NCBI GenBank assembly: GCA_017502085.1
Contig: JAFVVQ010000059.1
Span: 1-64,000, forward strand
Length of the DNA stretch: 64,000 bases
DNA from: Clostridia bacterium
GTDB taxonomy: Bacteria; Bacillota; Clostridia; Oscillospirales; Acutalibacteraceae
Direction: 5' to 3'
In this document: positions 11,476 through 44,326 of the stretch, piece by piece
Numbering within the stretch: the first letter of the stretch is position 1
How the letters are laid out: every line of letters starts with the position of its first letter
Made by a program: the position numbers and the translations under genes
Notes under the pieces: model-generated
What the model saw: the letters and a program-made list of their open reading frames with translations, nothing else
What the model was told of the DNA's origin: nothing
The model's database searches: none

Positions 11476-11524
11476 TTTACACCATCCCATTTCTGTAAAA
11501 AACAAACATTTATTGAGAAAAATA

Positions 11525-12697: not shown

Positions 12698-12699
12698 CT

Positions 12700-14202: not shown

Positions 14203-15017
14203 TTTATATCATCCTTGATTTTTTCAAAATCATTGTCATCAATATCCATTTCAAAAGAAAGCCAGAAGTCTCTTTCTTCTTTCGGTGGTAACTGCATATA
14301 GTCTTTATAGTATCTTTTTAAGTAGAAATCCCATTTTTCCGGAAGCGGCACCTCGAAATCACAGTATTCTTTCCAATCAGGAGTGCCGAATACTTCTTTT
14401 TCAAAAATATTTTTTGCACCGTAATGTCCGCAGGCATTCATGGCATAATTGGACGAATCATACGGATATTTACCCATAATTTTATAATATTGCCTTGTAA
14501 GCTCTTTTTTCGAAAACGGAGAGCAGAAAATCTCAATCATTTTTCCTATAAAAAGCTTTATCGCATTCGGGTGTGAAATGCACTCACGCATTCTTTTATA
14601 TTTAATAAAAACTTTTTGTCTTTTAGAAAGAGTTTTGCAGATTTTTAACTGTTCGTCACGGTCATCAGGCAATCCGATCAAAGGAAAAAGATCTATATGT
14701 AACGTATTGGAAGAAGTTGACGGCATAGCAACTCTCGGAAAAAGATTAGTATATTTCCTGTTGTTTTTCAGATCGTCAATGCAAAACCTGTCGGATAACT
14801 CTTTTTCCAGGCAGTCACGTGCCTTTTCGAGCATTGAAAAAGGAATAAGGATATCCATATCGGTATCCCACGGAATAGGTCCTCTATGGCGGATTGTTCC
14901 GAGAACACTGCCGCAACACATATAAAAAGTGATATTATTACGATTTAATATCTCAATTGTTTCTTTAAGCATTTCATTTTCAATTTTCTGAATCTGAGAA
15001 ATGTTTATTTTTGCCAT
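14199..15017 (-). CDS. LicD family phosphotransferase
   Basis: The 272-residue product carries the LicD core: GSVLGTIRHRGPIPWDTDMDIL, a nucleotidyltransferase-fold motif with the metal-binding DxD, and a downstream HIDLFPLIGLPDD. LicD enzymes transfer phosphocholine or related phospho-groups from CDP donors onto glycans. The operon's TagD-like cytidylyltransferase may supply the CDP donor. I use the ATG at 15017 with GAGGTG upstream; the ATG at 15035 would place this site inside the gene. It overlaps the flippase gene by 4 bases. Confidence 0.9.
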   Translation of the reverse strand: MAKINISQIQKIENEMLKETIEILNRNNITFYMCCGSVLGTIRHRGPIPWDTDMDILIPFSMLEKARDCLEKELSDRFCIDDLKNNRKYTNLFPRVAMPSTSSNTLHIDLFPLIGLPDDRDEQLKICKTLSKRQKVFIKYKRMRECISHPNAIKLFIGKMIEIFCSPFSKKELTRQYYKIMGKYPYDSSNYAMNACGHYGAKNIFEKEVFGTPDWKEYCDFEVPLPEKWDFYLKRYYKDYMQLPPKEERDFWLSFEMDIDDNDFEKIKDDIK

Positions 15018-15027
15018 AAGAACACCT

Positions 15028-16014
15028 CTACACAAAAAGCATTATCAAGCGAACCAGATTGTGTTTCATCATAATAATTTTGATTTTATTTTTAAAAGAC
15101 AGCTTTGAAATATCTGCCTCTTTAAAAACCTTTAACGACAAATCGCTTTTCAGAATATCCCTGACCATATTTACGGTTTCTTTTTTATCGAGTCCGCTGT
15201 TCTTTATGCAGCTAGCGACAGCACCGAAAATCAGATAACACATATAAAGAGAAACTTGTTTCTGATAACTTTCGTTTTCGATTTTTGAAATACACGAATA
15301 CAAATCTGAAATTTTTTCAAGCCTCTTGGGATTGTATGCTCTGATCATCGAGCCTGCAGTCTGAATATAATGGTACCCTGCATTTCCGATAATTGAAAGC
15401 GACTTTGCATTCATCATACTGTATGCGGTTATTGCAACGTCTTCGCCGATAGTCAACTTATCGGAAACGTTCGGCAAAGCCTTTTCAAGAACACTTCGTC
15501 TGAATACTTTGGTGACAACACCCGGAATTACTCCGTATCTGACAAATCCCGAATGGATAAGCATCCGTGGAATAATCTTATTTTTTATTGCTTTTTCATC
15601 GTAATATCCGACTCCAAGTTGATTGAGCATAACCTTTAATTCAGACTCATACTCAAAAATGATTCCGCCCGTTACTATATCCGCCTTATCCTTTTCTGCC
15701 GAGGCCATCAGGTTAAAATACATATCTCCGTCAATATAATCATCGCAGTCAACGAAGCCTATGTACTCCCCTTTTGCAAGAGAAACACCCGTTTTTCTGG
15801 CGGCAACAAGACCTTCATTTTCTTTGTGATGCACAACTACTCTGCCATCGCTTTCAGCATATCCGTTGCAAATCGAAAGCGAATTATCCGTACTGCCGTC
15901 ATCAACAAGAATGAGTTCAAAATCGGCATATTGCTGAGACAATATGCTGTCTATACATCTTTTCAGATATTCATCTCCGTTAAATATCGGAACAATTATG
16001 CTTAACTTAAACAT
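15028..16014 (-). CDS. Glycosyltransferase family 2
   Basis: The 328-residue product is a GT-A fold inverting transferase: SIIVPIFNGDEYLKRCIDSI at the N-terminus, the nucleotide-binding LVDDGSTDNS, and the metal-binding DCDD in GFVDCDDYIDGDMY. The C-terminal third is predicted helical. ATG 16014 has GGAGG about 5 bases upstream. It sits between the Wzy-like gene and the LicD gene and likely adds a sugar of the repeat unit. Confidence 0.9.
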   Translation of the reverse strand: MFKLSIIVPIFNGDEYLKRCIDSILSQQYADFELILVDDGSTDNSLSICNGYAESDGRVVVHHKENEGLVAARKTGVSLAKGEYIGFVDCDDYIDGDMYFNLMASAEKDKADIVTGGIIFEYESELKVMLNQLGVGYYDEKAIKNKIIPRMLIHSGFVRYGVIPGVVTKVFRRSVLEKALPNVSDKLTIGEDVAITAYSMMNAKSLSIIGNAGYHYIQTAGSMIRAYNPKRLEKISDLYSCISKIENESYQKQVSLYMCYLIFGAVASCIKNSGLDKKETVNMVRDILKSDLSLKVFKEADISKLSFKNKIKIIMMKHNLVRLIMLFV

Positions 16015-16093
16015 TTTTCCTCCATTATAATAAGCAAAAACCTTGCTCTTAACACAATTTAAAAAATAGTCAAGTTAAAATATGAGCAACTTT

Positions 16094-17428
16094 TTATACA
16101 ACTGAATACCTCGGTTGATTTTCTTTATAACCGTTATCATTTTTCGTGATTCCCATTGGTGTGTTAAGAACAATTATAGCAAGATAAATATGGAATGGCG
16201 GATCAAAATAAAACAATTCACTCAGGAAGAAATACATTATAACTATGCATATAATAACGCTGTAATTCATAATATTTCTTTTAAAATCTATTTTTCTGCT
16301 CTGCTCGGAAATTGTAAAAAGAATTGCCAAAAGCAACAAGCCGCCAAACACACCTAAATAATAGAATAAGTCAATATAAGTATTATGTGCTGCTACGCCT
16401 TCCAACAAAGAAAAAGCAATTCCGCCGCCAAAGAAACCAATATCAATATTTTTTATCAAATATTCAGAATACATCAGCCACAAGTCGAATCGTCCCGTTG
16501 TCAACGTATTGATATCTACACCGTCTGCTGTTTCGCTTTTGGTAAATCTTTCAATGACTATATCAAAAGCATCTACCCACCCTGTAAAGACCAGCATCAC
16601 AACAACAATGACCAAAAATATTGAAGCGATTATCGCAAAATACTTTTTTTCCTTATAAAACATATATATAAGGAGAACAAACGGCAGTATAAGCATAATA
16701 ACAGCTGATTTACTGTATGTTAAAATCAAAAAATAGATAAAGGATATCGACATTGCAACAAAAAACACACCATTTAGTTCTTTCTTGTAAAATAGGATTA
16801 CAACCAAACAAAGAGAAATGATTATTCCAACAGCATAGTAATTGGGATCGACATATAACCCTGTAAAACGTGCAACAACCCCTCCGTCAACAGAACTACT
16901 GATTTCCTTAGCACCTATATAGTTATCGATTTTAAAATATGATGAATCAAACAATCCAAAAACAGAAGAAACAAGATTTCCTATAATATAGCTAAAAAAC
17001 ACTTCTTTATCTTTGATACTTACCTTATCGTTAAGAATACTTGAAAGAAAAAGAAAATTGCATATCAACTTAATCGTTCTGAAAAGATGAAATTCTCCCG
17101 AAAACAGCTGTCCGATAATAATATAAAACGCAAATAACATTACTATTAATGTTGCCTTACGAGGCAAAACCATGTGAAGAACAACATAGGCAAGAATAAC
17201 AATTGTAAAAAAGGATTGCGCATCAACCGACATTTTGAATATATTTGCAAGCGGCATAATAAAGAAAATCTGAAGAAGATTTGTCTCCTTATCGCAGAAA
17301 ACGAGCATCAAACCCATTATAAGAAATGCCGCCAGTGAAAAGACGTTTCTGTATGTACCGAAAAGAATCAGCAATGCAAGAAGTCCGGAGATAACCCAAC
17401 GGACTTTATTGCTTCTTATTGTGATCAA
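16094..17428 (-). CDS. O-antigen ligase/polymerase-like membrane protein (Wzy type)
   Basis: The 444-residue protein has about 11-12 transmembrane segments with one long polar loop near residues 290-330 (containing SEYLIKNIDIGFFGGG and AHNTYIDLFYYLG), the usual layout of Wzy polymerases and WaaL ligases. The NTYID..Y.G element is typical of the O-antigen ligase domain. The start is a TTG at 17428, with AAGGAGGGAG eight bases upstream. It lies within the glycan operon with a flippase, so polymerisation of the repeat unit outside the membrane is the likely role. Confidence 0.85.
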   Translation of the reverse strand: MITIRSNKVRWVISGLLALLILFGTYRNVFSLAAFLIMGLMLVFCDKETNLLQIFFIMPLANIFKMSVDAQSFFTIVILAYVVLHMVLPRKATLIVMLFAFYIIIGQLFSGEFHLFRTIKLICNFLFLSSILNDKVSIKDKEVFFSYIIGNLVSSVFGLFDSSYFKIDNYIGAKEISSSVDGGVVARFTGLYVDPNYYAVGIIISLCLVVILFYKKELNGVFFVAMSISFIYFLILTYSKSAVIMLILPFVLLIYMFYKEKKYFAIIASIFLVIVVVMLVFTGWVDAFDIVIERFTKSETADGVDINTLTTGRFDLWLMYSEYLIKNIDIGFFGGGIAFSLLEGVAAHNTYIDLFYYLGVFGGLLLLAILFTISEQSRKIDFKRNIMNYSVIICIVIMYFFLSELFYFDPPFHIYLAIIVLNTPMGITKNDNGYKENQPRYSVV

Positions 17429-17447
17429 TCGGACTCCCTCCTTTTAG

Positions 17448-18632
17448 TTATTTCACCAGCTCTGCAAATTTCATAATTGCGGCATCGTTATTGCCTCGGT
17501 AATTTGCAAGATTTGCCTTTGTCCTTGAGATTATTTCTCTGTTATCCATAATTTCAGCAAACTTTTCTCTGATTGCCTCATCCGTATTATCGCAGATGAA
17601 GTCCTCAACTCCGTCTTTCAGCATCTCATCCGTAGACGAAGTTCTTGTTGAAAAAACAGGCACGTGCAACGTTTTAGCCTCCATATAAACCATCGGTGCC
17701 GCTTCGTGATACGAAAGACTGATATAAAGATCCGAATTTTTCATATACGGATAGGGGTTTTTCTGATTTCCCAGAAGAACTATTCTGCCTTCAAATCCGT
17801 TTTCGGCTGCCGACGCTATGATGTTTTCTCTTTCGGCTCCGTCACCAGCAATATACCATACGATATCCTTATGCTTTTCAAAAACAGGCCTGAACGCCTC
17901 TATACCGCGTACAATTCCCTTGCCCTTATCCAATCTGCAAGCAGAAAAACATACAAACTTGTCTTCAGGAAATTTAACGGTCTGTTCCTCCTCAGAAAGG
18001 GTCAGAATGCGGTTGATGTTCTGCATATTATAACAATAATCAATCGGCACTTTCAGATTCGGATGTCGTTTTTTGAATATGTTTGCCGTACCCTGAGATA
18101 CGCAGACTATTTTAGTCATTTGCTCCATATATTTTTCGTTTTTAAGATCATTATATGAAACGAAATACGGATCATAATGAATCCAGCCCAGCTTGATCGG
18201 TGCATCCGTTTTTTTGCTTATAAATCGGTAAAATCCCGACACAACCGCTTTCGGTGAATCTTCATGATGATACGCTATCGCAACGTCATATCCATTGAGC
18301 GGTTTTTGTAACAGCATCGCAAGTCCAAAAAACAGTCTGTTCGTGAAAATTCTGTCAAACAATCCGAGAAAAAGTCTGAATACATATGCCAAAAGTCCCA
18401 GCTTCTTCGATTCTCCCGCAGACATTCCGTGAAGCTGAAGCAGCTTATTAGTTTTAATGATATTAATCCCTTCGGGCAATCTGTCCTTAAGCTGACCGTC
18501 ATTGTTGAATACACAGACATCAACGTCATAATCCTCTTTAAGTGCACTTATCAGATTGAGCATTGATGACTGTATGCCGCCGACAACAAACGACTTATTG
18601 ACAACCAGAATCTTTTTTTTGGTTCGATTCAT
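17448..18632 (-). CDS. Glycosyltransferase family 4
   Basis: The 394-residue product has a GT-B fold: an N-terminal VNKSFVVGGIQSSMLNLI segment (the GG loop of the acceptor domain) and a C-terminal donor site with FSACRLDKGKGIVRGIEAF, YIAGDGAERENI and a family E-x7-E segment in SLSYHEAAPMVYMEAKTL. ATG 18632 is preceded by GGAGG. It is the second gene of the polysaccharide operon, 20 bases after the YdjC-like gene. Confidence 0.9.
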   Translation of the reverse strand: MNRTKKKILVVNKSFVVGGIQSSMLNLISALKEDYDVDVCVFNNDGQLKDRLPEGINIIKTNKLLQLHGMSAGESKKLGLLAYVFRLFLGLFDRIFTNRLFFGLAMLLQKPLNGYDVAIAYHHEDSPKAVVSGFYRFISKKTDAPIKLGWIHYDPYFVSYNDLKNEKYMEQMTKIVCVSQGTANIFKKRHPNLKVPIDYCYNMQNINRILTLSEEEQTVKFPEDKFVCFSACRLDKGKGIVRGIEAFRPVFEKHKDIVWYIAGDGAERENIIASAAENGFEGRIVLLGNQKNPYPYMKNSDLYISLSYHEAAPMVYMEAKTLHVPVFSTRTSSTDEMLKDGVEDFICDNTDEAIREKFAEIMDNREIISRTKANLANYRGNNDAAIMKFAELVK

Positions 18633-27525: not shown

Positions 27526-28689
27526 CTATAGCCCTACACTTTTATACATCAAATTAATATCATCAATGTAATCATCAGTTAAATTGTTAACCTTGCCGAG
27601 ATAATATTTGCGGAACCTTCTTCTTTTACCGACCAAAAAAGAGACCCATCTGAAAATCTGACAGATTGGGGTAAGAAGTTTGAACTTGCCTATTATCGGA
27701 TACTGGGATTTCAGTTCCGCATACGGCACAATAATTCTCGAAAGAATATAGTTCATTCTACCGCCCGAACGCTGACGGTCTAAAATCAGTTTTGTATCCT
27801 GCGAACCGAAGCTGCCGCCCGAAATGATATATTTTTCCATTATGCGGGTGACCTCGGTATGCTCAGCATCCGCAAACCATACCTGACTCAGGTGCTTTGC
27901 GGTTTTTTCAAAATCCTCAAGTTTACCTTTTTGGATAAGTTCTCTGACTTCAGCGGTATTGAATCTGCCGCTTTTTTCCATCAGATGCAGATCAAGAAAC
28001 GGCCTCACACCACCTCCACCGCCAATAAAATGTTTTGCCATATGTGCGATGTGATAATAATAAAACATTCCGTCGGTAAGGGCATATCTGTATTTCCCCG
28101 CCTCGCACTGAACGGCATAATCCCAGACATTGCCAAGCACCTTTGCCATTGCAGGTGAATAGTTCTCCTCAACAAGACCGAAATGCAACTCGATATAGAT
28201 ACCTTCCGTTGAAAGAATCGAAATGTCATGCGTAGCCTTTTCCTTCACGTCATATCCCAGAATTCTGCCGATTTCATTTGCAGCAAAATCAACGTCATTC
28301 TCGCTGACAAGAATATCGATATCGCATCCCATACGCAACCATTCATCGGAATAGAATTCTCGCATAACAGCGCCTTTGAGAGGAATATACGGTATTTTCA
28401 GCTGTTCAAGCACGTCACATACCTTTTCGGTAACGAAGCGCATATTTTCAAATCTGAACAGAGACGAATAAACCTTATCGCGAAAAACCGACTGCATATC
28501 GGAGCCATCTGCCAGACCGCTGTTAATCAGTGCCGAGCCGACAACATGTGTCACGCCGTGCAACTTCGAAAGCACGTAAAGTTCACGCAGAACATCTTCC
28601 GGAAGCGGATTTTCATACGGCAAAACAAGCGTGCTGCCGCACACTGCATTATCAAGAAGCCGTATCAAAGTTTCGTTCAGAAAATCCAT
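27526..28689 (-). CDS. Nucleotidyltransferase-family protein of the RiPP-like cluster
   Basis: The 387-residue product carries the core of the NTP_transf_5 type of nucleotidyltransferase-fold proteins: IPYIPLKGAVMREFYSDEWLRMGCDIDILV, with the DxD (DID) metal site, then IYIELHFGLVEE. These proteins are found in clusters with PqqD, HPr-kinase-like and S24/S26-type genes, including some lasso peptide clusters, where their target is mostly unknown; nucleotide transfer to the peptide is possible. It is the last gene of module B, 15 bases after the peptidase gene. Confidence 0.8.
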   Translation of the reverse strand: MDFLNETLIRLLDNAVCGSTLVLPYENPLPEDVLRELYVLSKLHGVTHVVGSALINSGLADGSDMQSVFRDKVYSSLFRFENMRFVTEKVCDVLEQLKIPYIPLKGAVMREFYSDEWLRMGCDIDILVSENDVDFAANEIGRILGYDVKEKATHDISILSTEGIYIELHFGLVEENYSPAMAKVLGNVWDYAVQCEAGKYRYALTDGMFYYYHIAHMAKHFIGGGGGVRPFLDLHLMEKSGRFNTAEVRELIQKGKLEDFEKTAKHLSQVWFADAEHTEVTRIMEKYIISGGSFGSQDTKLILDRQRSGGRMNYILSRIIVPYAELKSQYPIIGKFKLLTPICQIFRWVSFLVGKRRRFRKYYLGKVNNLTDDYIDDINLMYKSVGL

Positions 28690-28704
28690 CAGTTTCTCCG
28701 TGGT

Positions 28705-29169
28705 TTAAGATTTATCGGTTATCTTTTTTATCTTGCGCCACAGGGTGAGCAAATACGGTCTGACCGGCATCAGGATCCGCCACACTGCGCACAAAAACAG
28801 ATATGACGGCGAATTGCAGGATACTTTTTTGCCGTTTTTCTCAGTATGGCTGACCGCCGCAACAATCTGCGAGAAATCAACGGCTTCGCACCATTTCTGA
28901 GCATCACCGTTCATAATGAGCACTCCGTCAGGCAGAACTTTTCTCACTCTGTGAAGCACAAGCACTCCGCTTTCACGCCTGAAAAGCAGAATGCTGCCCT
29001 TTATAATATTTTTTTCATCAGGCGCACACAGCCAGACGGTATCCTTTCCGTCAACCAGAAAAGGATTCATGCTGTTGCCTGATACAACAAGCGGTATAGC
29101 TCCGCCTTCAGCAATGATTTTTTCATAATCTGCGGTAAACTGAGCCGCTGTACACACTAATTTTTCCAT
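28705..29169 (-). CDS. S24/S26-type peptidase, Ser-His type (module B)
   Basis: The 154-residue product has the LexA/signal-peptidase fold motifs: VVSGNSMNPFLVDGKD with the candidate Ser nucleophile before Met, GSILLFRRESG, and VLHRVRKV, where His takes the place of the usual Lys as in SipW/ER-type signal peptidases. A hydrophobic C-terminal segment (SYLFLCAVWRILMPV) may touch the membrane. It overlaps the HPr-kinase-like gene by 13 bases. It may remove the leader from the cluster's precursor peptide; this is inference from context. A paralogue is encoded at 34292-34750. Confidence 0.72.
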   Translation of the reverse strand: MEKLVCTAAQFTADYEKIIAEGGAIPLVVSGNSMNPFLVDGKDTVWLCAPDEKNIIKGSILLFRRESGVLVLHRVRKVLPDGVLIMNGDAQKWCEAVDFSQIVAAVSHTEKNGKKVSCNSPSYLFLCAVWRILMPVRPYLLTLWRKIKKITDKS

Positions 29170-29930
29170 TCCGTTGTTTCGTAAACCAACCGTACCGCTT
29201 CCTCATCCGGTCTGCACTCAAGCAGATATACAGGCACTGCGGCAATGATCTTTTCATATGTATCAAGCATATTGCAGACACATTTCCTGTCCCACGCGGG
29301 CATAAAGATATGCGGTAAAAAATATTCATTTGAAGCGGAAGGTCCGAGCTTCGTGATTCTGTTTTCTTTCGCCTGACGAAGCACAACCACAGCCCTCAGC
29401 TTTGTTTTTTTGTTGAGGCAGAATTCCGACGAGCCTTTCCACGGCAGACCGTAAGCATAAGCCACACCGTTTTCTTCTTTAAGCAGGATTTTGTCGCCAT
29501 TAATGATTTCTGAGCCGATATACTCCTGCCAGAGTTTTGCCTGAGTTGTTTTTCCCACGCCCGAAAAGCCGGTAAAAGCCACACCCTCTCCGTCGATATC
29601 CACGCACGAGGCGTGAAGCAGAAGGGTTGAAAAATAAGAGAATCTCGAACACAAAGCGGCAAGTTCGAGTGCATGTTCACCGTTTTTAGCGGTAAAAAAA
29701 CCTGTCGCCCTGCTCCAATCCTCATCGGCACACAGGAACTCTCCGCCGGGAAGACGCAGAGTATGTGCCGCATCGGATTCAAAATACTGTATTCCGTGGC
29801 ACTCGGGAATTGTGTCTACGAATTCAATATTCATAACAGAGGCACCGTCGGAGACATCCTCAAACGCACCGACAAAATCCGCATATTCATCCTGCCATTC
29901 TATCAGCAGGTCCGCAAGACGGATCTTCAT
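29157..29930 (-). CDS. HPr-kinase-like protein (module B)
   Basis: The 257-residue product has the C-terminal kinase fold of HPr kinase/phosphorylase: Walker A in FTGFSGVGKTTQAKLW, then NGDKILLKEENG, YGLPWKGSSEFCLN and a late FMPAWDR. The N-terminal half is not that of a catabolite-control HprK, and no HPr gene is near. Relatives in lasso and other RiPP clusters phosphorylate the precursor peptide. It starts in a TGATG overlap with the precursor stop, so it is translationally coupled to its likely substrate. Confidence 0.82.
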   Translation of the reverse strand: MKIRLADLLIEWQDEYADFVGAFEDVSDGASVMNIEFVDTIPECHGIQYFESDAAHTLRLPGGEFLCADEDWSRATGFFTAKNGEHALELAALCSRFSYFSTLLLHASCVDIDGEGVAFTGFSGVGKTTQAKLWQEYIGSEIINGDKILLKEENGVAYAYGLPWKGSSEFCLNKKTKLRAVVVLRQAKENRITKLGPSASNEYFLPHIFMPAWDRKCVCNMLDTYEKIIAAVPVYLLECRPDEEAVRLVYETTEWKN

Positions 29931-30190
29931 CAGAATACGTAGCGGAAGCAGTTGATGTATGCATCTCCGCCGTATTTGTCAAGCTCTTTGTAGTAATCTC
30001 CGAAGGTTGTACCGGGGGTATGTACCTCTGCCCATGTAAAACCCGAATAATACTTCTTGCAGTCATCAATTTTATAAGTAAACTTGATAACGGCTGCACC
30101 GGAAACCTCCGCACCGCCGGATATAGCGATATTCTCTTTCATGTTTATCGCAAAAAGTTTACTTTCGGGAACGATATATTCTTTTTTCAT
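29930..30190 (-). CDS. Candidate RiPP precursor peptide (module B)
   Basis: The 86-residue product begins MKKEYIVPESK, sharing the MKKxYxxP start of the second precursor at 32853-33023. A Gly/Ala-rich segment (AISGGAEVSGAA, residues 22-33) separates a leader-like part from an aromatic-rich tail with two Cys (Cys44, Cys81), eight Tyr and the C-terminus FRYVF. It overlaps the radical SAM start by 4 bases (ATGA) and the kinase gene by one base. GAAAGGAG lies upstream of the ATG at 30190. The modified residues cannot be told from sequence. Confidence 0.7.
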   Translation of the reverse strand: MKKEYIVPESKLFAINMKENIAISGGAEVSGAAVIKFTYKIDDCKKYYSGFTWAEVHTPGTTFGDYYKELDKYGGDAYINCFRYVF

Positions 30191-31239
30191 ACCGTATCTC
30201 CTTTCTTTTTCTCATATATCCTGAACAGTTTTTCTGCCATCAGGCAGAAGCTTTTGTCAATCTTTTCGGGATGTCCGCTTTCGGCACAGAGTATGCCCGG
30301 ACATCTCTGACAGAACATTTTATATCTGCAATCCGCACACTCCGAAGGGCATTTCAACTTTTTGAGCGCAGACGTCAGTGCTTTGAAATCCGCCGCCGCA
30401 TCGCCCGAATACTGTATGTATGGCTCTGCAAGGAATGAACAAAGCTGAACATGACCGTGCCACGTCACCCACATGGAATTGCGGTAACTTCCGCACGTGA
30501 CAAACGGAAATTCAATCGGCGGTACGAGTGTTTTTTCGAGCTCCTCAAGGGTGATTTCGTCCGGAAAATCGTGAAGTGCAAAACGGGATTCTTCAGCGTT
30601 GTTGACAGCACCTCTCGGGGACCTGAGCACCGATATAGTATGCCGGAACGGGATCCCCTTTTCGTTTGCAAAGGCATACATCTTTTGCAGTTCCTCTGCA
30701 TTCTGTTTCACGACGGTTGCGCTCATTTTCAGCGGTATCTGCTCAGCCGTCAGCAAATCGATTGCCTTTGTAATTCTTGTGAAGCCGTCGGTACATCCGC
30801 AAACATCCGAATAGGTTTCGTCACTTGCACCGTAAAGCGTAAGTTTTATACAGAAGGGTTTGCCGTAAAGGCGGAATTTTTCAATTGCAGTCTCATCGAT
30901 AAGTGAACCGTTTGAGAGAATTGAAATCAGAAATCCCATTTCGTTGAGCCTTGAATAAATCTCCCAGAAATCGGGATGAGCCAGCGGCTCACCGCCTGTC
31001 AGACACAGATTCAGAGTCCCCGAATCCCTCACCTGCCTTGCGATTTCAAGCCATTCGTCAGCCGTAAGCATTCTGCCTTGTTCTGCAGCCTGCTCTTTGG
31101 TCAGACGAACGTAACACATCACGCAATTGAAGTTGCAGTGGGGGGTCAGTTCAAAGGTGACGTTAAGCGGTATGCAGTTATGCTCCGCAAGTCGCTGAAG
31201 TGAGCCCATAAAGGCATTACCGTTATCGCAATCAATCAT
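30187..31239 (-). CDS. Radical SAM/SPASM protein (module B)
   Basis: The 350-residue product carries the radical SAM motif Cys35-x3-Cys39-x2-Cys42 (in LTPHCNFNCVMCYV) and SAM-binding LCLTGGEPLAHPDF. The C-terminus is SPASM-like, with many Cys for auxiliary Fe-S clusters (CPSECADCRYKMFCQRCPGILC). Such enzymes form thioether or C-C cross-links on RiPP precursors. It starts in a 4-base overlap with the PqqD gene and ends in a 4-base overlap with the precursor gene, a compact RRE-enzyme-substrate order. Confidence 0.92.
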   Translation of the reverse strand: MIDCDNGNAFMGSLQRLAEHNCIPLNVTFELTPHCNFNCVMCYVRLTKEQAAEQGRMLTADEWLEIARQVRDSGTLNLCLTGGEPLAHPDFWEIYSRLNEMGFLISILSNGSLIDETAIEKFRLYGKPFCIKLTLYGASDETYSDVCGCTDGFTRITKAIDLLTAEQIPLKMSATVVKQNAEELQKMYAFANEKGIPFRHTISVLRSPRGAVNNAEESRFALHDFPDEITLEELEKTLVPPIEFPFVTCGSYRNSMWVTWHGHVQLCSFLAEPYIQYSGDAAADFKALTSALKKLKCPSECADCRYKMFCQRCPGILCAESGHPEKIDKSFCLMAEKLFRIYEKKKGDTV

Positions 31240-31502
31240 TCGAGTGCACCCTGCTCCCTGAGTCCGTTTAGAAATTTTTCTGTATCGGCAAGTGCCGTCT
31301 GACGGTCAACATCATAGTTTTCTGTCAGAATATCCGCAAGTTCATCGGCAGACGCACCCTTTTCGAGTGCTTTCCAGAGAAGTTCACCGCTTTCACTGAG
31401 AACTATCATGCCGTGAATGTCACTAGTTCTTGCGCCCGTCGGTACAGCCATAATCTGGCCGCTGATATTTCTGATCATAAATCCGCTTTTGATCCTGAAC
31501 AA
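31236..31502 (-). CDS. PqqD-family peptide chaperone (RRE, module B)
   Basis: The 88-residue product has the PqqD winged-helix pattern: FMIRNISGQIMAVPTG, then LSESGELLWKALEKGASADELADILTENYDVDRQTAL. PqqD-like proteins bind the leader of a precursor and present it to the radical SAM enzyme. It is clearly related to the C-terminal domain of the HPr-kinase fusion at 31665-32801 (shared YDVDRxTAxxD). The start is TTG 31502 with GGAGAGGTG upstream. It is the first gene of module B, behind its own promoter. Confidence 0.88.
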   Translation of the reverse strand: MFRIKSGFMIRNISGQIMAVPTGARTSDIHGMIVLSESGELLWKALEKGASADELADILTENYDVDRQTALADTEKFLNGLREQGALE

Positions 31503-31537
31503 CCGACACCTCTCCTATCATAATCATTTATTATGTA

Positions 31538-31566
31538 ATTATATCATACTACGTAAATATTATCAA
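31538..31566 (-). promoter_or_regulatory. Promoter of RiPP module B
   Basis: TTGATA and TATAAT are 17 bases apart on the minus strand, about 30 bases before the PqqD start. It follows directly on the terminator of module A. Confidence 0.8.
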
Positions 31567-31631
31567 TAATTTAATTGAAAATAATTAAATACACTGTTGA
31601 CTAAATGCACCGTTGACGCTTCATTTTATAT

Positions 31632-31658
31632 AAAAAATGCACCGCCGCAACGGTGCAT
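31632..31658 (-). terminator. Terminator of RiPP module A
   Basis: An 8-bp perfect stem (31637-31644 with 31651-31658) leads into TTTTTT on the minus strand, 6 bases after the kinase-RRE fusion stop. Confidence 0.9.
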
Positions 31659-31664
31659 CTGAAA

Positions 31665-32801
31665 TTAACCGAGTATTCCCATTTCGTCGAACTTTGCGAT
31701 GATCGAATCAATATCCTTTGCTGCCGTCTCACGGTCAACGTCATATTCATCAAGCACTGCGGCGAGCAAATCCTCTTTGCTGAGGGGATTCAGCAGCTTT
31801 TCAAAAATGAATGCCGACACCTCATTGAGCGCAATTGCGCCGTCAAACCTTGCGATGTTGCTGCCCGTGGGCATTACTATGAATTCATCCGCAACCTTGC
31901 GTAAAGCAAATCCTTCTTTAATCTTCATATCTATCGATACCTCCAGAATTTTTTCAGGGTTGTTGAACAATATTCCGTATGCTTCCTCTGCATCCCGCAC
32001 TTCGGGGCCGCAAAAGAATCTGTAAACAGGCACCTGAGCGGCAAGTTTTTTGGCTGTCATTATCACCTGAGATGCCGCCGAAGTATCCCACATCGGTATA
32101 AACACCTGCTTCATCAGTATCTTCGTTGCCTGCTCCGGGCTGAGTTTTCTGAAAAAAACGGAATCCGATCGGCGAACTTCAAGAATCGCCTTGAGTTTTC
32201 TGTCTGTGTTGCGGTATATACCCTCCTTACCGTCCCACGGTACGCCGCAAGCCGTTGCACCGTCGTCAGAGACCGAAACCGAAGGTCTGTCACCGCTGAT
32301 GAATTCTGCTCCGAGCGCATCAATCCAGGCACTTGCCCTCGTCGATTTGCCCAGACCCGAAACACCCGTAAAAGCCACCGCCTCGCCCTGCACATCGATA
32401 CATGCCGAATGGAGCGAAACCCTTGACCTGACTGCAAAAACGCTTTCAAACGCCATACGCAGAAGGTTGCGCAGAATGTGGTAAAGCACAGATTCATCCC
32501 TGCAAACGGGAATATACCATGTGATTTCACGGTAATCGGCCGAAAGTCCGACCTGAACGAAATCTTTGCATACGGGCGACACATAAATCCACGTGCCGTC
32601 TGTACCGCGGTAAACATCAACATCGTCGTGATGAGCAACAAGTCCGCAACTTTCGTTCAAAAGGGGTATATGACAAAAAAGAATCCGACCGTCACTCTTT
32701 TCGTGCGAATGACAGATAAACGGATTCAGAAAAGGCAGATCGCATTCAAGGTCAAAAACCAGACCGCAAATGCAGATTCTGTTACCGATATTTTCTTTCA
32801 T
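31665..32801 (-). CDS. HPr-kinase-like protein fused to a PqqD-like domain (module A)
   Basis: The 378-residue product combines an HPr-kinase-like part, with Walker A in FTGVSGLGKSTRASAW near residue 145 and ISGDRPSVSVSDDG, CGVPWDGKEGIYRN and FIPMWDTS downstream, and a C-terminal winged-helix PqqD-like part from about residue 293 (KIKEGFALRKVADEFIVMPTG...LNEVSAFIFEKL). The PqqD part is a close relative of the free PqqD of module B. The layout suggests a kinase that carries its own leader-recognition domain. It lies downstream of precursor A, with a hairpin between them. No strong ribosome site is visible before ATG 32801. Confidence 0.85.
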   Translation of the reverse strand: MKENIGNRICICGLVFDLECDLPFLNPFICHSHEKSDGRILFCHIPLLNESCGLVAHHDDVDVYRGTDGTWIYVSPVCKDFVQVGLSADYREITWYIPVCRDESVLYHILRNLLRMAFESVFAVRSRVSLHSACIDVQGEAVAFTGVSGLGKSTRASAWIDALGAEFISGDRPSVSVSDDGATACGVPWDGKEGIYRNTDRKLKAILEVRRSDSVFFRKLSPEQATKILMKQVFIPMWDTSAASQVIMTAKKLAAQVPVYRFFCGPEVRDAEEAYGILFNNPEKILEVSIDMKIKEGFALRKVADEFIVMPTGSNIARFDGAIALNEVSAFIFEKLLNPLSKEDLLAAVLDEYDVDRETAAKDIDSIIAKFDEMGILG

Positions 32802-32812
32802 TTTGGAAAAAT

Positions 32813-32838
32813 GAGCCGCAGAAACATATTCGCGGCTC
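32813..32838 (-). terminator. Attenuator-like hairpin between precursor A and the kinase
   Basis: A perfect 7-bp GC-rich stem (32813-32819 with 32832-32838) is followed by ATTTTT on the minus strand, right after the precursor stop. Partial termination here would make more precursor than enzyme. Confidence 0.55.
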
Positions 32839-32852
32839 CCTTTCGTTACAAA

Positions 32853-33023
32853 TTAAAAGCCTGAGTCTGCCACAACAATCTGATGTGAGCAACCTGCAAC
32901 TTCTTTGCTGTCAAGGTTAAACCATTCCTGAGTGCAGATAAGACTTACCTGGCTGGCAACAACCTGCTCACGATAGCGGAATTCGATCTTTTCAGCAACG
33001 GGTGTACTGTATGCCTTCTTCAT
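32853..33023 (-). CDS. Candidate RiPP precursor peptide (module A)
   Basis: The 56-residue product starts MKKAYSTPVAEKIEF, the same MKKxYxxP opening as the module B precursor. It has two Cys (Cys30, Cys45) and a mixed tail with HQIVVADSGF. I use ATG 33023, with GAGGAGG eight bases upstream, rather than the longer frame from 33044. It lies between the radical SAM and kinase-RRE genes and is followed by an attenuator-like hairpin. An AT-rich stretch of about 100 bases upstream could hold an extra promoter. Confidence 0.7.
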   Translation of the reverse strand: MKKAYSTPVAEKIEFRYREQVVASQVSLICTQEWFNLDSKEVAGCSHQIVVADSGF

Positions 33024-33131
33024 AGTTTTGCCTCCTCTATACATTATCGGATTTATGTAAGTATCTTTTTTGCAGATAAAAAACTTCTACACATACTATA
33101 CTAATATATTTTTACAAAAATTTCAATAGTT

Positions 33132-34295
33132 TTATAAAATTTTTCCGAGACCGCTTTTTGCCATTGCCTTACACCACTTGCATTGTTCAGGAGATGCGTG
33201 ACCCTCAGGGGCATCGGCATGGTCTGCAACGCACCCTTTCGAGCATTCTCTCAGACGGCATTTGTCACATTCTGCGGGAACTCTGTATTCCATAACACTT
33301 CCGTGAATTTTCTGCCAGGCAGAAGCAAAGCCCTCTTCCATCGGCTCCGACGAAATATGGATAAGTCTGTTGCACGGAACAAGTTTTCCTTCCCAGGTGA
33401 CGTTGAAAACGCTTCTGCCGCCGCCGCAGCGAAGCCCTTTCGGAGCAGTTTCATCCGTAACTGTATTAACAGGCGGTAAATCGGCAACACATTCTTCGGG
33501 CGGTAGATACCCCTTGAGTGAGCGTTCCAGTTTAAAAAGTCTGATATATTCCTCAACACCCATATCACGGAAGCCTTCAGATTTATCGGTTTCAGCTCTT
33601 GGCGATATAAGTCCTCCGTTGACCTGAAAATCCGTACCGAAAGTCGATGCAAGTTTCATCACTTGCTCATTTTCTTCCATTGTGAGATAAGCGGTCGGAG
33701 TCAGCGATATGCGTACGGGAATCCCCGCTTCAATCGCGTTTCTGATATTTTCCATAACAGATGAAAAAACTCTTCTGCCCGTCACTCTTTCATACATATC
33801 CTCATCTGCACCGTAGAGTGTGACCTGCACCGTTACGGGCGGATGTTTTTTGAAAAACTCTATTCTTTCCGCATTCAGAAGCAATCCGTTTGTGAGCACG
33901 GAAACCTGAACGGCACGGCTGTGCAAATAAAGATAAAGTCGGTCAAAACCGGGGTAAGTAAGGCATTCACCGCCCGTCAGAGTTGCATACATCATCCCCG
34001 AATCGATCGCCTGAGACATAATATTCTCCCACTCATCAGCGGTAAGCAATCGGCAAGAACGCAGCTTTTCCGCTTCAAGATGAACGTAACACATACGGCA
34101 ATCAAAATTGCAAAGCGGAGTCAGTTCGAATGTACCTTTGACAGGTACGCCCTTCTGCCTTGCTCTCGACTCGAGATATTTACGCATAGCCCAATCGTAA
34201 ACAAGAGGATCGGCACCCTCTGAACGCAACCGTGCGATCAGTTCAGGCAGACTTTTTGCCTGCTGAACGGCAGAAATGATTTCATATTCTTTCAC
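33132..34295 (-). CDS. Radical SAM/SPASM protein (module A)
   Basis: The 387-residue product has the radical SAM motif Cys62-x3-Cys66-x2-Cys69 (ELTPLCNFDCRMCYVHLE) and LTGGECLTYPGF. A SPASM-type C-terminus follows, with CNRLIHIS, CDKCRLRECSKGC and a final CKWC. It is a paralogue of the module B enzyme with a longer N-terminal helical region. The GTG start at 34295 overlaps the stop of the peptidase gene (GTGA). It likely modifies the 56-residue peptide encoded just downstream. Confidence 0.92.
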   Translation of the reverse strand: MKEYEIISAVQQAKSLPELIARLRSEGADPLVYDWAMRKYLESRARQKGVPVKGTFELTPLCNFDCRMCYVHLEAEKLRSCRLLTADEWENIMSQAIDSGMMYATLTGGECLTYPGFDRLYLYLHSRAVQVSVLTNGLLLNAERIEFFKKHPPVTVQVTLYGADEDMYERVTGRRVFSSVMENIRNAIEAGIPVRISLTPTAYLTMEENEQVMKLASTFGTDFQVNGGLISPRAETDKSEGFRDMGVEEYIRLFKLERSLKGYLPPEECVADLPPVNTVTDETAPKGLRCGGGRSVFNVTWEGKLVPCNRLIHISSEPMEEGFASAWQKIHGSVMEYRVPAECDKCRLRECSKGCVADHADAPEGHASPEQCKWCKAMAKSGLGKIL

Positions 34296-34750
34296 CTGTT
34301 ACCCACCACCGTTCTTTTGATTTTCGAACCGATGCGTCGGATTTTGCGCCACAGACTGCGAAACGGTCTCACCATAAGGGGCAGAATACCGAAAGTCCTT
34401 GATACGGCTGAATCCAGACGGATTTTTTTGCCGTCACGCACCGCCGAAACCGCAATCCCCCATACCTGAGAAATGTTTACGGGATCATCACGGTAAACAC
34501 AGTTATCGCCGAGAGTGACAACTGTTTCTCCCTTTATTTTCGCAATTCGGTGAATAACGTTCATTCCGTCATTTCTACGGAAAAGAACAATATCGCCCCT
34601 TTTCAGTCTGCGATAAACGGGTATCACCGTAACTGTATCCCTGTTTTTACGCAGAATGGGTCGCATACTCTCTCCGCTGAGGGTCAGGTTAACGGGAATC
34701 TCCGCACCCTCCAGAGCAAGTCTGTGCCATTCGTCAACAGAAAGATACAT
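34292..34750 (-). CDS. S24/S26-type peptidase, Ser-His type (module A)
   Basis: The 152-residue product is a paralogue of the module B peptidase: LTLSGESMRPILRKNRD with the candidate Ser, GDIVLFRRNDG, and NVIHRIAKI with His in the base position. I prefer ATG 34750 (GGGGAG just upstream, length matching the paralogue); the ATG at 34801 in the same frame has no ribosome site and adds 17 residues. A basic C-terminus follows. Leader removal or export-linked cleavage of the peptide is a reasonable guess. Confidence 0.72.
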   Translation of the reverse strand: MYLSVDEWHRLALEGAEIPVNLTLSGESMRPILRKNRDTVTVIPVYRRLKRGDIVLFRRNDGMNVIHRIAKIKGETVVTLGDNCVYRDDPVNISQVWGIAVSAVRDGKKIRLDSAVSRTFGILPLMVRPFRSLWRKIRRIGSKIKRTVVGNR

Positions 34751-34808
34751 CGCACTCCCCGAAACGGCTGATTCTGTTTTGGAATTCAAAAATTCATCCA
34801 TATTTATA

Positions 34809-36533
34809 TCAGTTAAGATTCATTTCTATAAGATTACCGCTCTTGCTGATGCGATAGACCCTTGTGCAATATTGAAGCATACTGGGTCGGTGAGTGGTGA
34901 TTATTCTCGTGCGGTTGGGATACTGCTTCATCATATTCGCAAGAACATTTTCTTCTGTTTCGGCATCGAGCGCACTCGTTGCTTCGTCCATAATGATTAC
35001 GGGAGCATCCCTGAGAAGCGCTCTCGCAATCGAGAATCTCTGCACCTGACCCTCGGAGAAGTTGACTCCCCTTTCTCCGATTTCCGTGTTGATACCTGCC
35101 GGAAGCTTTTCTACGAAGCCCCATGCATCGGCGTTGCGCAAAGCCTCTTCAATCTGCTCATCCGTCGCATCGGGACGGACTACCCTCAGATTGTCGGCAA
35201 TCGTGCCCGAAAAAATTGCGTTGCCCTGAGGCACGTAGGCACAGAATCTTCTCGTGCTTTCAGAAACGGCGATGCTTTGACCGTCAGTTGTTTCCATCGT
35301 AATATCGCCCGAATCGGGACTTATCAGACCGAGTATGAGGCGGAGTATCGTTGTTTTGCCTTCGCCGGAAGGTCCGACAAACGCAATCGTTTCGCCCGGA
35401 CGTGCTTTGAACGAAATCTCCCTGACAACAGGCTCTGTGCCGTCGTCATAAGTATAAGTAAGGTTATCGCAGTTGATGATAATGCCCTTTTCATTTGCCA
35501 TTTCTTCCATTTTTTCAGCCTCGGCACTGTCGGCTCTGACTTCAAGCGGAAGATTAGTGATTTCCATAACTCTGCCTGCGGCGGTAGCAATCGAAATTGC
35601 ACTCGGAAGCAGAGAAACAATCGATGAAAATGAACTTGTAAGCTGACCCGAAACCTGAAGGAAAAGGGTCATTGTGCCGTAGGTTATAACACCTTGCCAG
35701 AGTCTCCAGACGCCCCATCCGTAGCACAGATATGAAACAGCCAGACCGATGAACGACATACAAACCGTCATTGCGATTGAAAAGCGGTCGTGATCGAGCT
35801 TGATTCTTCTGAAAGTCTCGAGCAGGTCACGAAGCTGTGCAACGTAGCGCTTGGTGATATCGAAAGCCTTGATTGTCTGAAGATTCTGAACGGATTCCGA
35901 GCAGTATGAGAGAATTTTGCCGTTCATTTCGCGGCTTTCCTGATTATACTTTCGCATCATTTTTGTTGAGAATTTTGATGAAACCAACAGAAACGGTGCA
36001 CTCAAAAAAGCAAAAATCGCCATAGTCGGGTCATAATAGAGCACCACCGCAAGGCATCCGACAAACTGCGCCGTCTTCGTAAACACACCGGGAATAAACG
36101 TTACGATGCTGTTGGAAACGGTTGCAACGTCGCCTTCAATTCGGTTGATAAGCTCACCCGAATGATATCTGCGGATATCAGACCAGCAGGCAAGCACCAT
36201 ATGCTCATAGACGTCAGCGCGGATGTTGTTGTTGATTTTCGTCGCAACAATACCCGCAACTCTTGAAAGCACGCCTGTTATCACAATCTGAGAAACACCC
36301 AGACCGATTGTTGCGATAGCAGCGTTTACGATAGTATCGTTGTTATGGGTGACAACCGCGTCAATCAGATGCTTGGATGCAACACTCGAGCCGAGGCCCA
36401 TCACAGTGCCGAGCAATCCGACGATAATGTAAAAAACTATCTGCAACTTATATGCCGAGGCATAGCCGAGCAGCCAGCGCCACTCCTTGCCGAGTGAACG
36501 CAGCAACCCAAAATATTCTTTTGGTTTTTTCAT
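34809..36533 (-). CDS. ABC transporter, fused membrane and ATPase domains
   Basis: The 574-residue protein is a half-size exporter: about six membrane segments in residues 1-310, then a nucleotide-binding domain with Walker A GPSGEGKTT, a signature variant FSEGQVQRFSIARAL, Walker B VIIMDEATSALD and the H-loop TTHRPS. No C39 peptidase domain is present, so leader cleavage would need another enzyme, which the S24/S26-type proteins could provide. It lies 15 bases after the BY-kinase gene and before module A, so it is probably the exporter of the peptide products. Confidence 0.9.
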   Translation of the reverse strand: MKKPKEYFGLLRSLGKEWRWLLGYASAYKLQIVFYIIVGLLGTVMGLGSSVASKHLIDAVVTHNNDTIVNAAIATIGLGVSQIVITGVLSRVAGIVATKINNNIRADVYEHMVLACWSDIRRYHSGELINRIEGDVATVSNSIVTFIPGVFTKTAQFVGCLAVVLYYDPTMAIFAFLSAPFLLVSSKFSTKMMRKYNQESREMNGKILSYCSESVQNLQTIKAFDITKRYVAQLRDLLETFRRIKLDHDRFSIAMTVCMSFIGLAVSYLCYGWGVWRLWQGVITYGTMTLFLQVSGQLTSSFSSIVSLLPSAISIATAAGRVMEITNLPLEVRADSAEAEKMEEMANEKGIIINCDNLTYTYDDGTEPVVREISFKARPGETIAFVGPSGEGKTTILRLILGLISPDSGDITMETTDGQSIAVSESTRRFCAYVPQGNAIFSGTIADNLRVVRPDATDEQIEEALRNADAWGFVEKLPAGINTEIGERGVNFSEGQVQRFSIARALLRDAPVIIMDEATSALDAETEENVLANMMKQYPNRTRIITTHRPSMLQYCTRVYRISKSGNLIEMNLN

Positions 36534-42919: not shown

Positions 42920-43309
42920 TTATTCTTCAAATGCCGTTCTTTTCTGTACGGGTCTGATAAACCTGGCAATGACGCCGAAAAGTATCTGTTCCATGCTGAA
43001 CAAAACAAAATATACTGTTGCCGCATAAACAATGAACGCGAACAATTCTGTCGCTTCAAAAACAAATCCGCTGTCGACGGCAAGATACGAAAGAGCTGTG
43101 TTTGTGGGAATAAGCGCCACCGATGTGATGACAAACATCCACACGTTTTCATATCCCTTAAAAAGCGGAACAAGCGCAACCTCCAGAAAGATTACCGCAA
43201 CGCAGACAACCAGAACGGGAACGCTGAATGTCAACACGGACACAAGCGATAACACGAAAGGAATCAGCACGGCTGCACAACTGATGATTTTTTTCTCTTT
43301 CAAAAGCAC
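42920..43309 (-). CDS. Small polytopic membrane protein
   Basis: The 129-residue product has about four hydrophobic helices and a basic C-terminus (RPVQKRTAFEE). I take the GTG at 43309, which overlaps the end of the M50 gene by 10 bases with GGGGGT upstream; this implies translational coupling. No family recognised. It probably partners the M50-type membrane protease. Confidence 0.65.
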   Translation of the reverse strand: MLLKEKKIISCAAVLIPFVLSLVSVLTFSVPVLVVCVAVIFLEVALVPLFKGYENVWMFVITSVALIPTNTALSYLAVDSGFVFEATELFAFIVYAATVYFVLFSMEQILFGVIARFIRPVQKRTAFEE

Positions 43310-44286
43310 GATATTACCCCCAATACGTTTACAATCAGAAGGATCGGCAGGGCAATCTGAGTGGCACAGATGATTCCGCACATTGCAATGGTTGCCGCAC
43401 CCGACACACCCGATTTTTTAAGTTTCTGTCTGCGGCGGCGGCTCGTAATGACGTCGACAGCATTTGCAAGCACGTTATCCGAACCGAAAAGTGCACTGAA
43501 CATACGCATACCGTCCATACTGCCGACCATAATGAAATTCATACAACCGAGGATGATATTCGTGAACGCTATATCAAATGCGATCAATGAAACCAAACCC
43601 TCCGTAAACGACGAAACAATCATCATAAACCCTGCGAGTGCAAAATTCATTTCAACACCCGCCGCATAAATCTGGAGCTTTTTGAGTCGGCTTCTGACGG
43701 GCTTGTCGTCAATAATGACGTATGCTCCCGGAAGTATAAAATAACAAAGGAGCAATCCCGCTTCATACATATTTCCGCCGTAAGAAAGGCAGGCAAACAT
43801 ATGCCCCGCCTCGTGCACTGCCATACCCAGAAACAATCCCAGAGCAGTACCCAAGGCGATGCCGACCCACGTGTAATCCGTATAGAAATCCGGCTCGTTA
43901 CGGATAAAGAAACAAATTCCCGCAATCAGAAGCGGCAACCAGCTGATAAGCAGGAGACTGTTCATCAGTTCCGACAGAATAACGAGTCCCTCGCTGACCT
44001 TCGGCTCCCATAACGTGAGGATTTTCTGTGAAAGTCCCAGTGACATCCATCGGTGTTTCTTTGCGAGTTTGTTTGAAATAAGTGCGTCGATAAATTCATT
44101 TCTCTTCACGTTGCCCGAAGGGATTTTCAACGTCGAGGGATCTGTTTTACCGTTAAGATTGACGGCAATATACGCCTCCTCTTTGGAAAGCTCATATTCT
44201 TTGTCTTCAACCATGTCGACCAGTACGTACTCCCCTTCAGAAGTTCTTCTGACTTTCATCCAGCTTACAAGCTTGGGATATTTCAT
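43300..44286 (-). CDS. M50-type membrane metalloprotease with PqqD-like N-terminus
   Basis: The 328-residue product has a soluble N-terminal part (residues 1-80) with a PqqD-like winged-helix pattern (YVLVDMVEDKEYELSKEEAYIAVNLNG), then several membrane segments. The zinc motif HEAGH lies in GMAVHEAGHMFACLSYGG, and a second-ligand DG in MVGSMDGMRMF, as in site-2 proteases. Similar PqqD-M50 proteins occur in some peptide-modification clusters. Start at ATG 44286; the frame extends to 44322 without support. Substrate unknown. Confidence 0.82.
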   Translation of the reverse strand: MKYPKLVSWMKVRRTSEGEYVLVDMVEDKEYELSKEEAYIAVNLNGKTDPSTLKIPSGNVKRNEFIDALISNKLAKKHRWMSLGLSQKILTLWEPKVSEGLVILSELMNSLLLISWLPLLIAGICFFIRNEPDFYTDYTWVGIALGTALGLFLGMAVHEAGHMFACLSYGGNMYEAGLLLCYFILPGAYVIIDDKPVRSRLKKLQIYAAGVEMNFALAGFMMIVSSFTEGLVSLIAFDIAFTNIILGCMNFIMVGSMDGMRMFSALFGSDNVLANAVDVITSRRRRQKLKKSGVSGAATIAMCGIICATQIALPILLIVNVLGVISCF

Positions 44287-44302
44287 TCTCTCACTTCCTT
44301 CC

Positions 44303-44326
44303 CGGGGTGACCCGAAAGTCACCCCG
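44303..44326 (-). other. Intercistronic hairpin before the M50 gene
   Basis: A perfect 9-bp GC-rich stem (44303-44311 with 44318-44326) with a 6-base loop lies between the Lon-like gene and the M50 ribosome site. There is no U-tract, so it may stabilise mRNA or limit translation. Confidence 0.5.

Follow-up and report, generated by a model that had tools for sequence, protein, structure and literature searches.

Two sets of genes that appear to make modified peptides stand side by side in one polysaccharide locus on a 64,000-nucleotide stretch of DNA from a gut Clostridia bacterium of the Acutalibacteraceae (contig JAFVVQ010000059.1, positions 1 to 64,000; the whole stretch is called the window below). 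Between positions 27526 and 36533 it carries two modules, A and B, of the kind that make ribosomally synthesized and post-translationally modified peptides (RiPPs). Our reading, to which we give a probability of roughly 0.7, is that they form a capsule-locus RiPP system of the working type of the Linear Polyphosphorylated Peptides (LPP) with radical SAM enzymes added, and that A and B are independent of each other while sharing one MsbA-like exporter and one nucleotidyltransferase (NTase). A preliminary description of this DNA had proposed two RiPP-like modules, each with a RiPP recognition element (RRE), a radical SAM enzyme, a kinase and a signal-peptidase-like enzyme, and its proposal of a shared exporter and NTase is supported by what follows.

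The gene inventory claimed there was confirmed. All listed cluster genes are present, every one on the minus strand, and the families matched: two radical SAM enzymes, two PqqD-type RREs, two kinases like HPr kinase (HPrK-like), two signal-peptidase-like peptidases and two MKKxYxxP peptides, with one ATP-binding cassette (ABC) exporter and one NTase for the two modules. In the order of transcription the exporter gene (36533-34809) is followed by module A (S24a, rSAMa, PreA and a kinase-A-PqqD fusion, 34801-31665), a terminator-like hairpin, a promoter-like site, module B (PqqDb, rSAMb, PreB, kinase B and S24b, 31502-28705) and the PF14907 NTase (28689-27526). Several neighbouring cluster genes overlap by a few bases. 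Matches of the kinases, of one peptidase (Pfam), of both peptidases (NCBIfam), of SPASM and of MsbA lie below curated cut-offs. The features are:

34809 to 36533, minus strand: ABC exporter, MsbA-like, 574 aa, with membrane domain and ATPase (ABC_membrane 6e-35, ABC_tran 9e-28)
34292 to 34801, minus strand: S24a, signal-peptidase-like peptidase of module A, predicted leader peptidase (Peptidase_S24 4e-6; sigpep_I_arch, TIGR02228, 5e-9, below cut-off)
33132 to 34295, minus strand: rSAMa, radical SAM enzyme of module A with SPASM-like C-terminus, GTG start (Radical_SAM PF04055 6e-23)
32853 to 33023, minus strand: PreA, precursor peptide A, 56 aa, MKKAYSTP leader, Ser24, Trp34 (gaggaggc before the ATG at 33023)
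31665 to 32801, minus strand: HPrK-like kinase of module A, 378 aa, with fused C-terminal PqqD-type RRE (PqqD 8e-12 at residues 306-377; weak Hpr_kinase_C 5.7e-4)
31635 to 31660, minus strand: terminator-like hairpin between the modules, 11-pair stem and T tail (the scan gave 27 such sites against 17.1 in shuffles)
31538 to 31566, minus strand: promoter-like site before module B, TTGATA-17-TATAAT with extended -10, 11/12 of consensus (the scan gave 32 such sites against 29.0 in shuffles)
31236 to 31502, minus strand: PqqDb, discrete PqqD-type RRE of module B, TTG start (PqqD 2.5e-15)
30187 to 31239, minus strand: rSAMb, radical SAM enzyme of module B with SPASM-like C-terminus (Radical_SAM PF04055 6e-23)
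29930 to 30190, minus strand: PreB, precursor peptide B, 86 aa, MKKEYIVP leader, Ser24, conserved Cys44 and Cys81 (15 aligned rows)
29157 to 29930, minus strand: HPrK-like kinase of module B (Hpr_kinase_C 0.002, below cut-off)
28705 to 29169, minus strand: S24b, signal-peptidase-like peptidase of module B (sigpep_I_arch, TIGR02228, 2e-5 and SipW 0.0011, both below cut-off)
27526 to 28689, minus strand: NTase of family PF14907, predicted to act on phosphate (NTP_transf_5 4e-29)

Peptide B is under purifying selection and evolves about as slowly as its enzymes. The ratio of nonsynonymous to synonymous change (dN/dS) of PreB is 0.050 between loci L075 and L076, against 0.066-0.205 for seven neighbouring genes, and 0.148 between L073 and L148, against 0.043-0.202 for six (L numbers denote loci, G numbers genomes). 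In the alignment of 15 rows from distinct loci the leader reads MK[KN]xYxxPxSxL...E.IA..S, followed by a core about 65 residues long in which two Cys are invariant, and a reading of precursor B as a chance open reading frame (ORF) is ruled out by dN/dS together with this conservation. The PreB gene overlaps the rSAMb gene or lies at most 4 nt from it in 15/15 distinct loci, and a precursor B profile matched in 10 of 398 family genomes, always with a peptide that belongs to a B module. For precursor A the evidence comes from four loci (window, L081, L095 and L145), in all of which PreA adjoins rSAMa. Its leader is strongly conserved and its core variable except for one Trp, with no invariant Cys; dS is saturated (infinite or >2) in five of six pairs, and L095-L145 gives dN 0.19, dS 1.41 and dN/dS about 0.13. 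The short ORFs had been said to belong to the enzymes, and their conservation beside them in relatives leaves that claim standing; both MKKxYxxP peptides are present, and only the start of PreA had to be moved, from 33044 to 33023 as the most likely one.

Relatives were sought with rSAMb, and the fetched stretches were annotated with profiles made from the window proteins. The search of GTDB contigs gave seven loci, three of them close at 61%, two of which (L006 and L007) differ by 1 base in 19053. Of the family genomes 38/300 matched at 1e-30, a number that falls to 6, counting the own genome, at 1e-130; in the genus 6/45, again with the own genome, matched at 1e-120 or better, G329 and G301 being the sources of L007 and L006; in the order 3/394 matched at 1e-60, two of these in the family. 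Module B was found in 15 distinct loci: the window, L006 (counted once together with L007, L141 and L142), L008, L073-L077, L143-L145 and L147-L150, of which L075 and L147 have an identical PreB protein encoded by different DNA. The order Wzc2-Wzc1-ABC-PqqDb-rSAMb-PreB-kinase holds in 15/15, with module A interposed after the ABC gene in the window only; in the 14 other loci the ABC gene stands directly before module B. S24b is present in 11 and the NTase in 12 of the 15. Upstream of the cluster lie two Wzc/Wzz-type genes and genes for an Ig-like protein, CpsB/CapC and LytR-CpsA-Psr (LytR_cpsA_psr), and the CpsB/CapC, LytR-CpsA-Psr, Wzz and tyrosine-autokinase-type neighbours mark the site as a capsule or exopolysaccharide locus. 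In a glycosyltransferase-rich part of the window, 14199-15035 matches a diacylglycerol cholinephosphotransferase family at 4e-22, below cut-off.

Module A is known from four loci: the window, L145 (G357) and L095 (G305) in the same genus, and L081 (G253) in the same family. L095 lies at a contig start and holds only a piece of S24a, and the rSAMa gene of L081 is split by a stop. At 1e-60 rSAMa matches 3/45 genus genomes, own included. In L145, L095 and L081 module A has an NTase of its own. Within the fetched stretches, module A accompanies module B in the window and in L145 and is missing from the other 13 of 15 B loci. L145 places A before Wzc2, so the pairing of A and B recurs in another arrangement. 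G253 and G305 contain no rSAMb match of B level (best 2e-60 and 1.7e-41, respectively); each has a different SpI/radical SAM module, in G305 on the same contig (L151) and in G253 on another contig (L080).

This distribution bears on the possibility of a two-component bacteriocin like thuricin CD, in which each radical SAM enzyme matures one of two jointly killing peptides. Thuricin CD is described, in the passages available, as a two-peptide sactibiotic with two radical SAM enzymes and two peptides (PMC12093266), and the window has these numbers too; one exporter serves both precursor and enzyme pairs here, and the joint presence of A and B in L145 also agrees. Unlike thuricin CD, the modules here occur apart in relatives, with A in the fetched stretch of only 2/15 B loci, A without B in L081 and L095, and no B-level enzyme in G253 or G305. 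Moreover, peptide B is about as slowly evolving as its enzymes, the linkage to capsule genes is constant, and no immunity gene was recognised, no dedicated search having been made. Kinase and NTase are not known as part of thuricin-type clusters. It seems improbable, then, that A and B form one two-peptide weapon.

The phylogeny of the radical SAM enzymes agrees with separate modules. In a tree of 43 proteins, which holds 8/15 B enzymes and 2/4 A enzymes (the remaining ones are split or were obtained later), rSAMa groups with the enzyme of L095 (98/93) and the eight B enzymes form one clade (100/98), and enzymes of other loci are nearer to each than A is to B. The relatives of rSAMa share 45% (L095), 43% (L145) and 43% (G253/L081, with one internal stop) identity with it, while in the window the A-B pairs share 32% (radical SAM), 34% (kinase), 35% (peptidase) and 30% (PqqD). 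Local duplication of one module is ruled out by the separate supported clades and pair identities of 30-35%. The gene pairs, rightly called paralogous in the preliminary description, are, on these results, old paralogues that were assembled separately. We read the window as a B locus that took up module A behind its ABC gene and ahead of module B. Both the terminator and the extended -10 before PqqDb match the ABC-PqqDb layout of B-only loci: TGnTATAmT was read by eye in 9/9 B loci in which the gap before PqqDb exceeds 100 bp; in five further loci the ABC-PqqDb gap is at most 24 nt, and in L144 the two genes touch. A separate locus, L082 (3337-10677), has two sister radical SAM enzymes (100/100) with one PqqD, an SpI-type peptidase, a kinase, an ABC gene and an NTase, and no precursor was recognised in it.

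The likeness on which our reading turns is to LPP, first described in 2026 (Popov et al., Nat Commun 17:6633, PMC13381572). As given in the main text of that paper, the LPP set consists of an SpI peptidase, a discrete RRE, an HprK kinase, an NTP transferase, an MsbA-like exporter and YxxP precursors in capsule loci; the paper shows that S3 of the LppA core, at Y+18 of the motif as published, is polyphosphorylated and that LppS cleaves in an RRE-dependent way. Common to both systems are an SpI-like Ser-His-Asp peptidase, a discrete RRE with the Tyr-binding Asp, an HprK-like kinase, an NTP transferase, an MsbA-like exporter, a YxxP leader, a Ser shortly after the leader and the capsule locus; the peptidase type, the RRE/kinase/NTP transferase/exporter set and the capsule setting that mark LPP clusters were all found. 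The difference is that each module here has a radical SAM gene and that the RRE is free only in B and fused to the kinase in A; a term search of the LPP main text (PMC13381572) gave no 'radical', 'rSAM', 'SPASM', 'PqqD' or 'Clostrid'. The earlier remark that no described system has this exact doubled set is to be corrected in one point: without the radical SAM genes the gene set has been described as LPP. The cluster would work like an LPP system, and the added radical SAM enzyme suggests that the peptide is not simply linear.

The RREs and kinases were compared residue by residue. An RRE-kinase fusion is found in 4/4 A loci (window, L081, L095, L145); of the claimed PqqD pair the two RREs stand, while the second is a domain of kinase A and not a separate gene. 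The kinase family profile matches HPr kinase structures at 0.0024, and His131, the P-loop residues Gly151, Lys152 and Thr154, and Asp171 of kinase A, which we take to be the working residues of the motif, are invariant in 19 aligned sequences; kinase B has the conserved motif residues as well. PqqDb can be aligned with lasso B1 chains as well as with LppB (9x8z); the RRE profile scores about 33 bits for the lasso B1 PDB chains TbiB1, PbaB1 and TfuB1 and 19.6 bits for LppB, the LPP side of the comparison being this single PDB chain. Asp73 of PqqDb is invariant in 8/8 aligned RREs and aligns with the Tyr-binding Asp70 of LppB (chain numbering matched by hand to the residues of the paper), and this apparent counterpart fits Tyr leaders. 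Elsewhere in the own genome (L005, contig C13, about 115 kb, 1495-1950) a discrete PqqD-type RRE adjoins glycosyltransferase-like and UDP-sugar-dehydrogenase-like ORFs, both named by eye from translations.

As regards leader removal, sigpep_I_arch is the best NCBIfam match of both S24a and S24b (the Peptidase_S24 match of S24b, 0.008, is below the Pfam cut-off), and Ser, His and the Asp of GD are aligned in 14/14 peptidase sequences, including both window copies. The best NCBIfam match of the exporter is MsbA_rel (1e-88, below cut-off), and no C39 peptidase domain matched in it at 1e-5, the ground on which double-glycine export via a C39 transporter was rejected. Because the exporter has no C39 match and the catalytic Ser, His and Asp are kept, the SpI-type peptidase is the favoured leader peptidase. 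At 43300-44322 the window has weak matches to RiPP-associated HExxH metalloproteases (daptide 4e-11, LiaK 9e-8, both below cut-off). The NTase is of PF14907, presumably also the family of the pseudomycoidin nucleotidyltransferase. The latter attaches one or two hexoses to a phosphorylated lasso peptide (PMC8498205, in the passages available), and by this analogy glycosylation of the phosphate is favoured here. The peptides had been described as perhaps phosphorylated or nucleotidylated; phosphate glycosylation seems likelier than nucleotidylation.

A possible kinase site is suggested by the Ser residues. In 19/19 A/B peptides a Ser is found at Y+19 or Y+20, counted from the tyrosine of YxxP, and the last residue is never Ser. 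For the other radical SAM loci, 37 candidate ORFs were hand-picked from 31 loci, and 33 of them have [YW]xxP in the first 20 residues; of these 33, Ser is the last residue in 28 and stands at +19/20 in 10. Among the 628 called proteins of these loci with 100 aa or more, a terminal Ser occurs in 34. The five picked peptides that lack one come from L010, L078 (two), L086 (a short ORF) and L100. Four ORFs were dropped for lack of [YW]xxP, namely L009:10201-10524, two of L088 and one of L100; in the L009 ORF a leader follows an internal start, and its last residue is not Ser. The simple gene caller under-counts, having missed radical SAM genes in L009, L078 and L096 and a kinase in L092, which were corrected in later counts. 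As the rows are related, the Ser counts are not independent events. They give a testable rule for the kinase site, namely the Ser behind the leader in A/B peptides and the C-terminal Ser in the wider family. In L078 (889-9993) two WxxP peptides that end in Ala, with Ser at W+19, accompany one radical SAM enzyme, PqqD, an SpI-type peptidase, a kinase and an ABC gene.

C-terminal Ser is the phosphosite of paeninodin-type lasso peptides (PMC8498205, in the passages available), and a cluster of this kind, with kinase, NTase, B1-type RRE and exporter, might have lost its cyclase and left the present locus as a remnant or variant. Paeninodin and pseudomycoidin clusters do share with it an HPrK-like kinase acting on Ser, a nucleotidyltransferase and a discrete RRE, the first two being known from lasso clusters (PMC8498205); lasso B1 proteins score highest in the RRE profile, and C-terminal Ser is kept in most peptides picked from sister loci. 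That Ser is missing in the A/B peptides, in contrast to 28/33 peptides of other radical SAM loci. Moreover, a scan limited to the ten cluster proteins gave no match to an asparagine-synthase-like cyclase or a B2 cysteine protease, an SpI-type peptidase takes the place of the protease, the cores are long and B has two conserved Cys. We consider a lasso remnant unlikely.

The radical SAM enzymes are clearer in family than in chemistry. Both have CX3CX2C (in rSAMa at residue 62) and a cysteine-rich C-terminus, and 13 Cys are invariant among 14 aligned rSAMb orthologues. Neither gave a SPASM match in the whole-protein Pfam scan; the C-terminal parts alone matched TIGR04085 at 0.0014 (rSAMb) and PF13186 at 0.078 (rSAMa), both below cut-off, and their Cys spacing looks SPASM-like. 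The radical SAM/SPASM assignment made earlier is thus secure for radical SAM (6e-23 each) and only weakly borne out for SPASM. At the level of radical SAM subfamilies there were only general matches far below cut-offs, which name none. Compared with sactipeptide and ranthipeptide systems, the radical SAM domains are present, SPASM is weak, and two Cys are conserved in B and none is invariant in A. The two Cys of peptide B would allow a thioether made by rSAMb, and the earlier proposal that rSAMa and rSAMb cross-link the peptides remains an inference. In one further published system a discrete RRE adjoins a radical SAM enzyme, as here; the words kinase, nucleotidyltransferase, S24 and polysaccharide are absent from its main text. 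In the open PubMed Central literature, among the matches listed and judged by title, abstract start or passages, no description of a RiPP with both radical SAM enzyme and HPr kinase was found.

Given the capsule context in 15/15 B loci, the radical SAM enzymes might act on capsule sugars, with a linear LPP system lying beside sugar-modifying enzymes. The weak SPASM matches, and the sugar enzymes DesII and cytosylglucuronate decarboxylase among the weak PDB sequence matches, are compatible with this. Among PDB sequences, however, the peptide enzyme SkfB matches best (3.6e-13), rSAMb overlaps or abuts the precursor gene in 15/15 loci, and radical SAM enzyme and precursor occur together in L079 and L081, whose fetched stretches gave no Wzc-type gene. 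We therefore doubt that sugars are the target.

Several observations weigh against the LPP-type reading. The LPP leader motif YxxPxVLxHQxIxFETxxS (PMC13381572, main text) is mostly lacking: the VLxHQxIxFET part is absent; YxxP is present, Glu stands at Y+14 in 15 B peptides and Glu or Asp in 4 A peptides, and a Ser follows at Y+19/20 (Y+18 in the motif). As lasso B1 outscores LppB, the RRE may fall outside the LPP clade; because of the incomplete motif and the undecided RRE clade we do not file the cluster as an LPP member. Kinase, SPASM and some peptidase matches are under curated cut-offs. S24b is absent from L008, L073, L077 and L148, so that some other peptidase must act there, and the NTase is absent from L008, L073 and L148. 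No kinase was found in the stretches of L010 and L084, although the L010 peptide carries Ser at both Y+18 and Y+19 and the L084 peptide has a C-terminal Ser; Ser positions need not mean phosphorylation, which speaks against a strict rule.

On balance we propose the following path for an LPP-type system with radical SAM enzymes; its chemical steps, their sites and order, and a surface or capsule-linked role are what we infer, while gene content, conservation, the selection on peptide B and the conserved catalytic motifs were observed directly. The PqqD-type RRE, free in B and kinase-fused in A, would bind the YxxP leader, and the HPrK-like kinase would phosphorylate Ser24 just behind it. The radical SAM enzyme would act on the core, probably near the two conserved Cys in B and near the conserved Trp in A. 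The signal-peptidase-like Ser-His enzyme may then remove the leader near Ala22/Ala23, the NTase may add a sugar or sugar phosphate to the phosphate, and the ABC protein would export the product.

In a wider family of loci a kinase and a radical SAM enzyme, often joined by PqqD, are encoded next to a protein of about 1400-2400 aa: L089 in the own genome (G000:C13:62000-81500, 9097-17489) and L086, L087, L090, L091, L098, L101, L103-L108 and L111. Of the three large proteins that were scanned, that of the own genome matches VWA weakly and the other two have surface domains of the Big/VWA/SpaA type; the loci mostly have a 64-83-aa YxxP peptide ending in Ser. Such loci might make a paeninodin-like radical SAM peptide that is attached to a surface adhesin.

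What the products of A and B do is suggested by the slow evolution of peptide B together with the constant capsule linkage, which favour a surface role over that of a bacteriocin; a capsule-linked role seems likelier. A specific form of it, in which the two peptides carry phosphoserine and radical SAM crosslinks and the NTase or LytR-CpsA-Psr then joins capsule glycan to the Ser24 phosphate, has in our view only a small chance of being right. How RREs keep pathways apart is a question raised in the LPP paper (PMC13381572, main text), and two LPP-like modules with two Tyr-type RREs, one of them kinase-fused, would be a natural test bed for it. The locus joins radical SAM peptide chemistry, HPrK-type peptide phosphorylation and glycosylation, and the capsule loci of gut Clostridia, which have so far been treated apart. 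If the peptides are indeed tied to the capsule, the cell would wear a capsule decorated with two ribosomal peptides.

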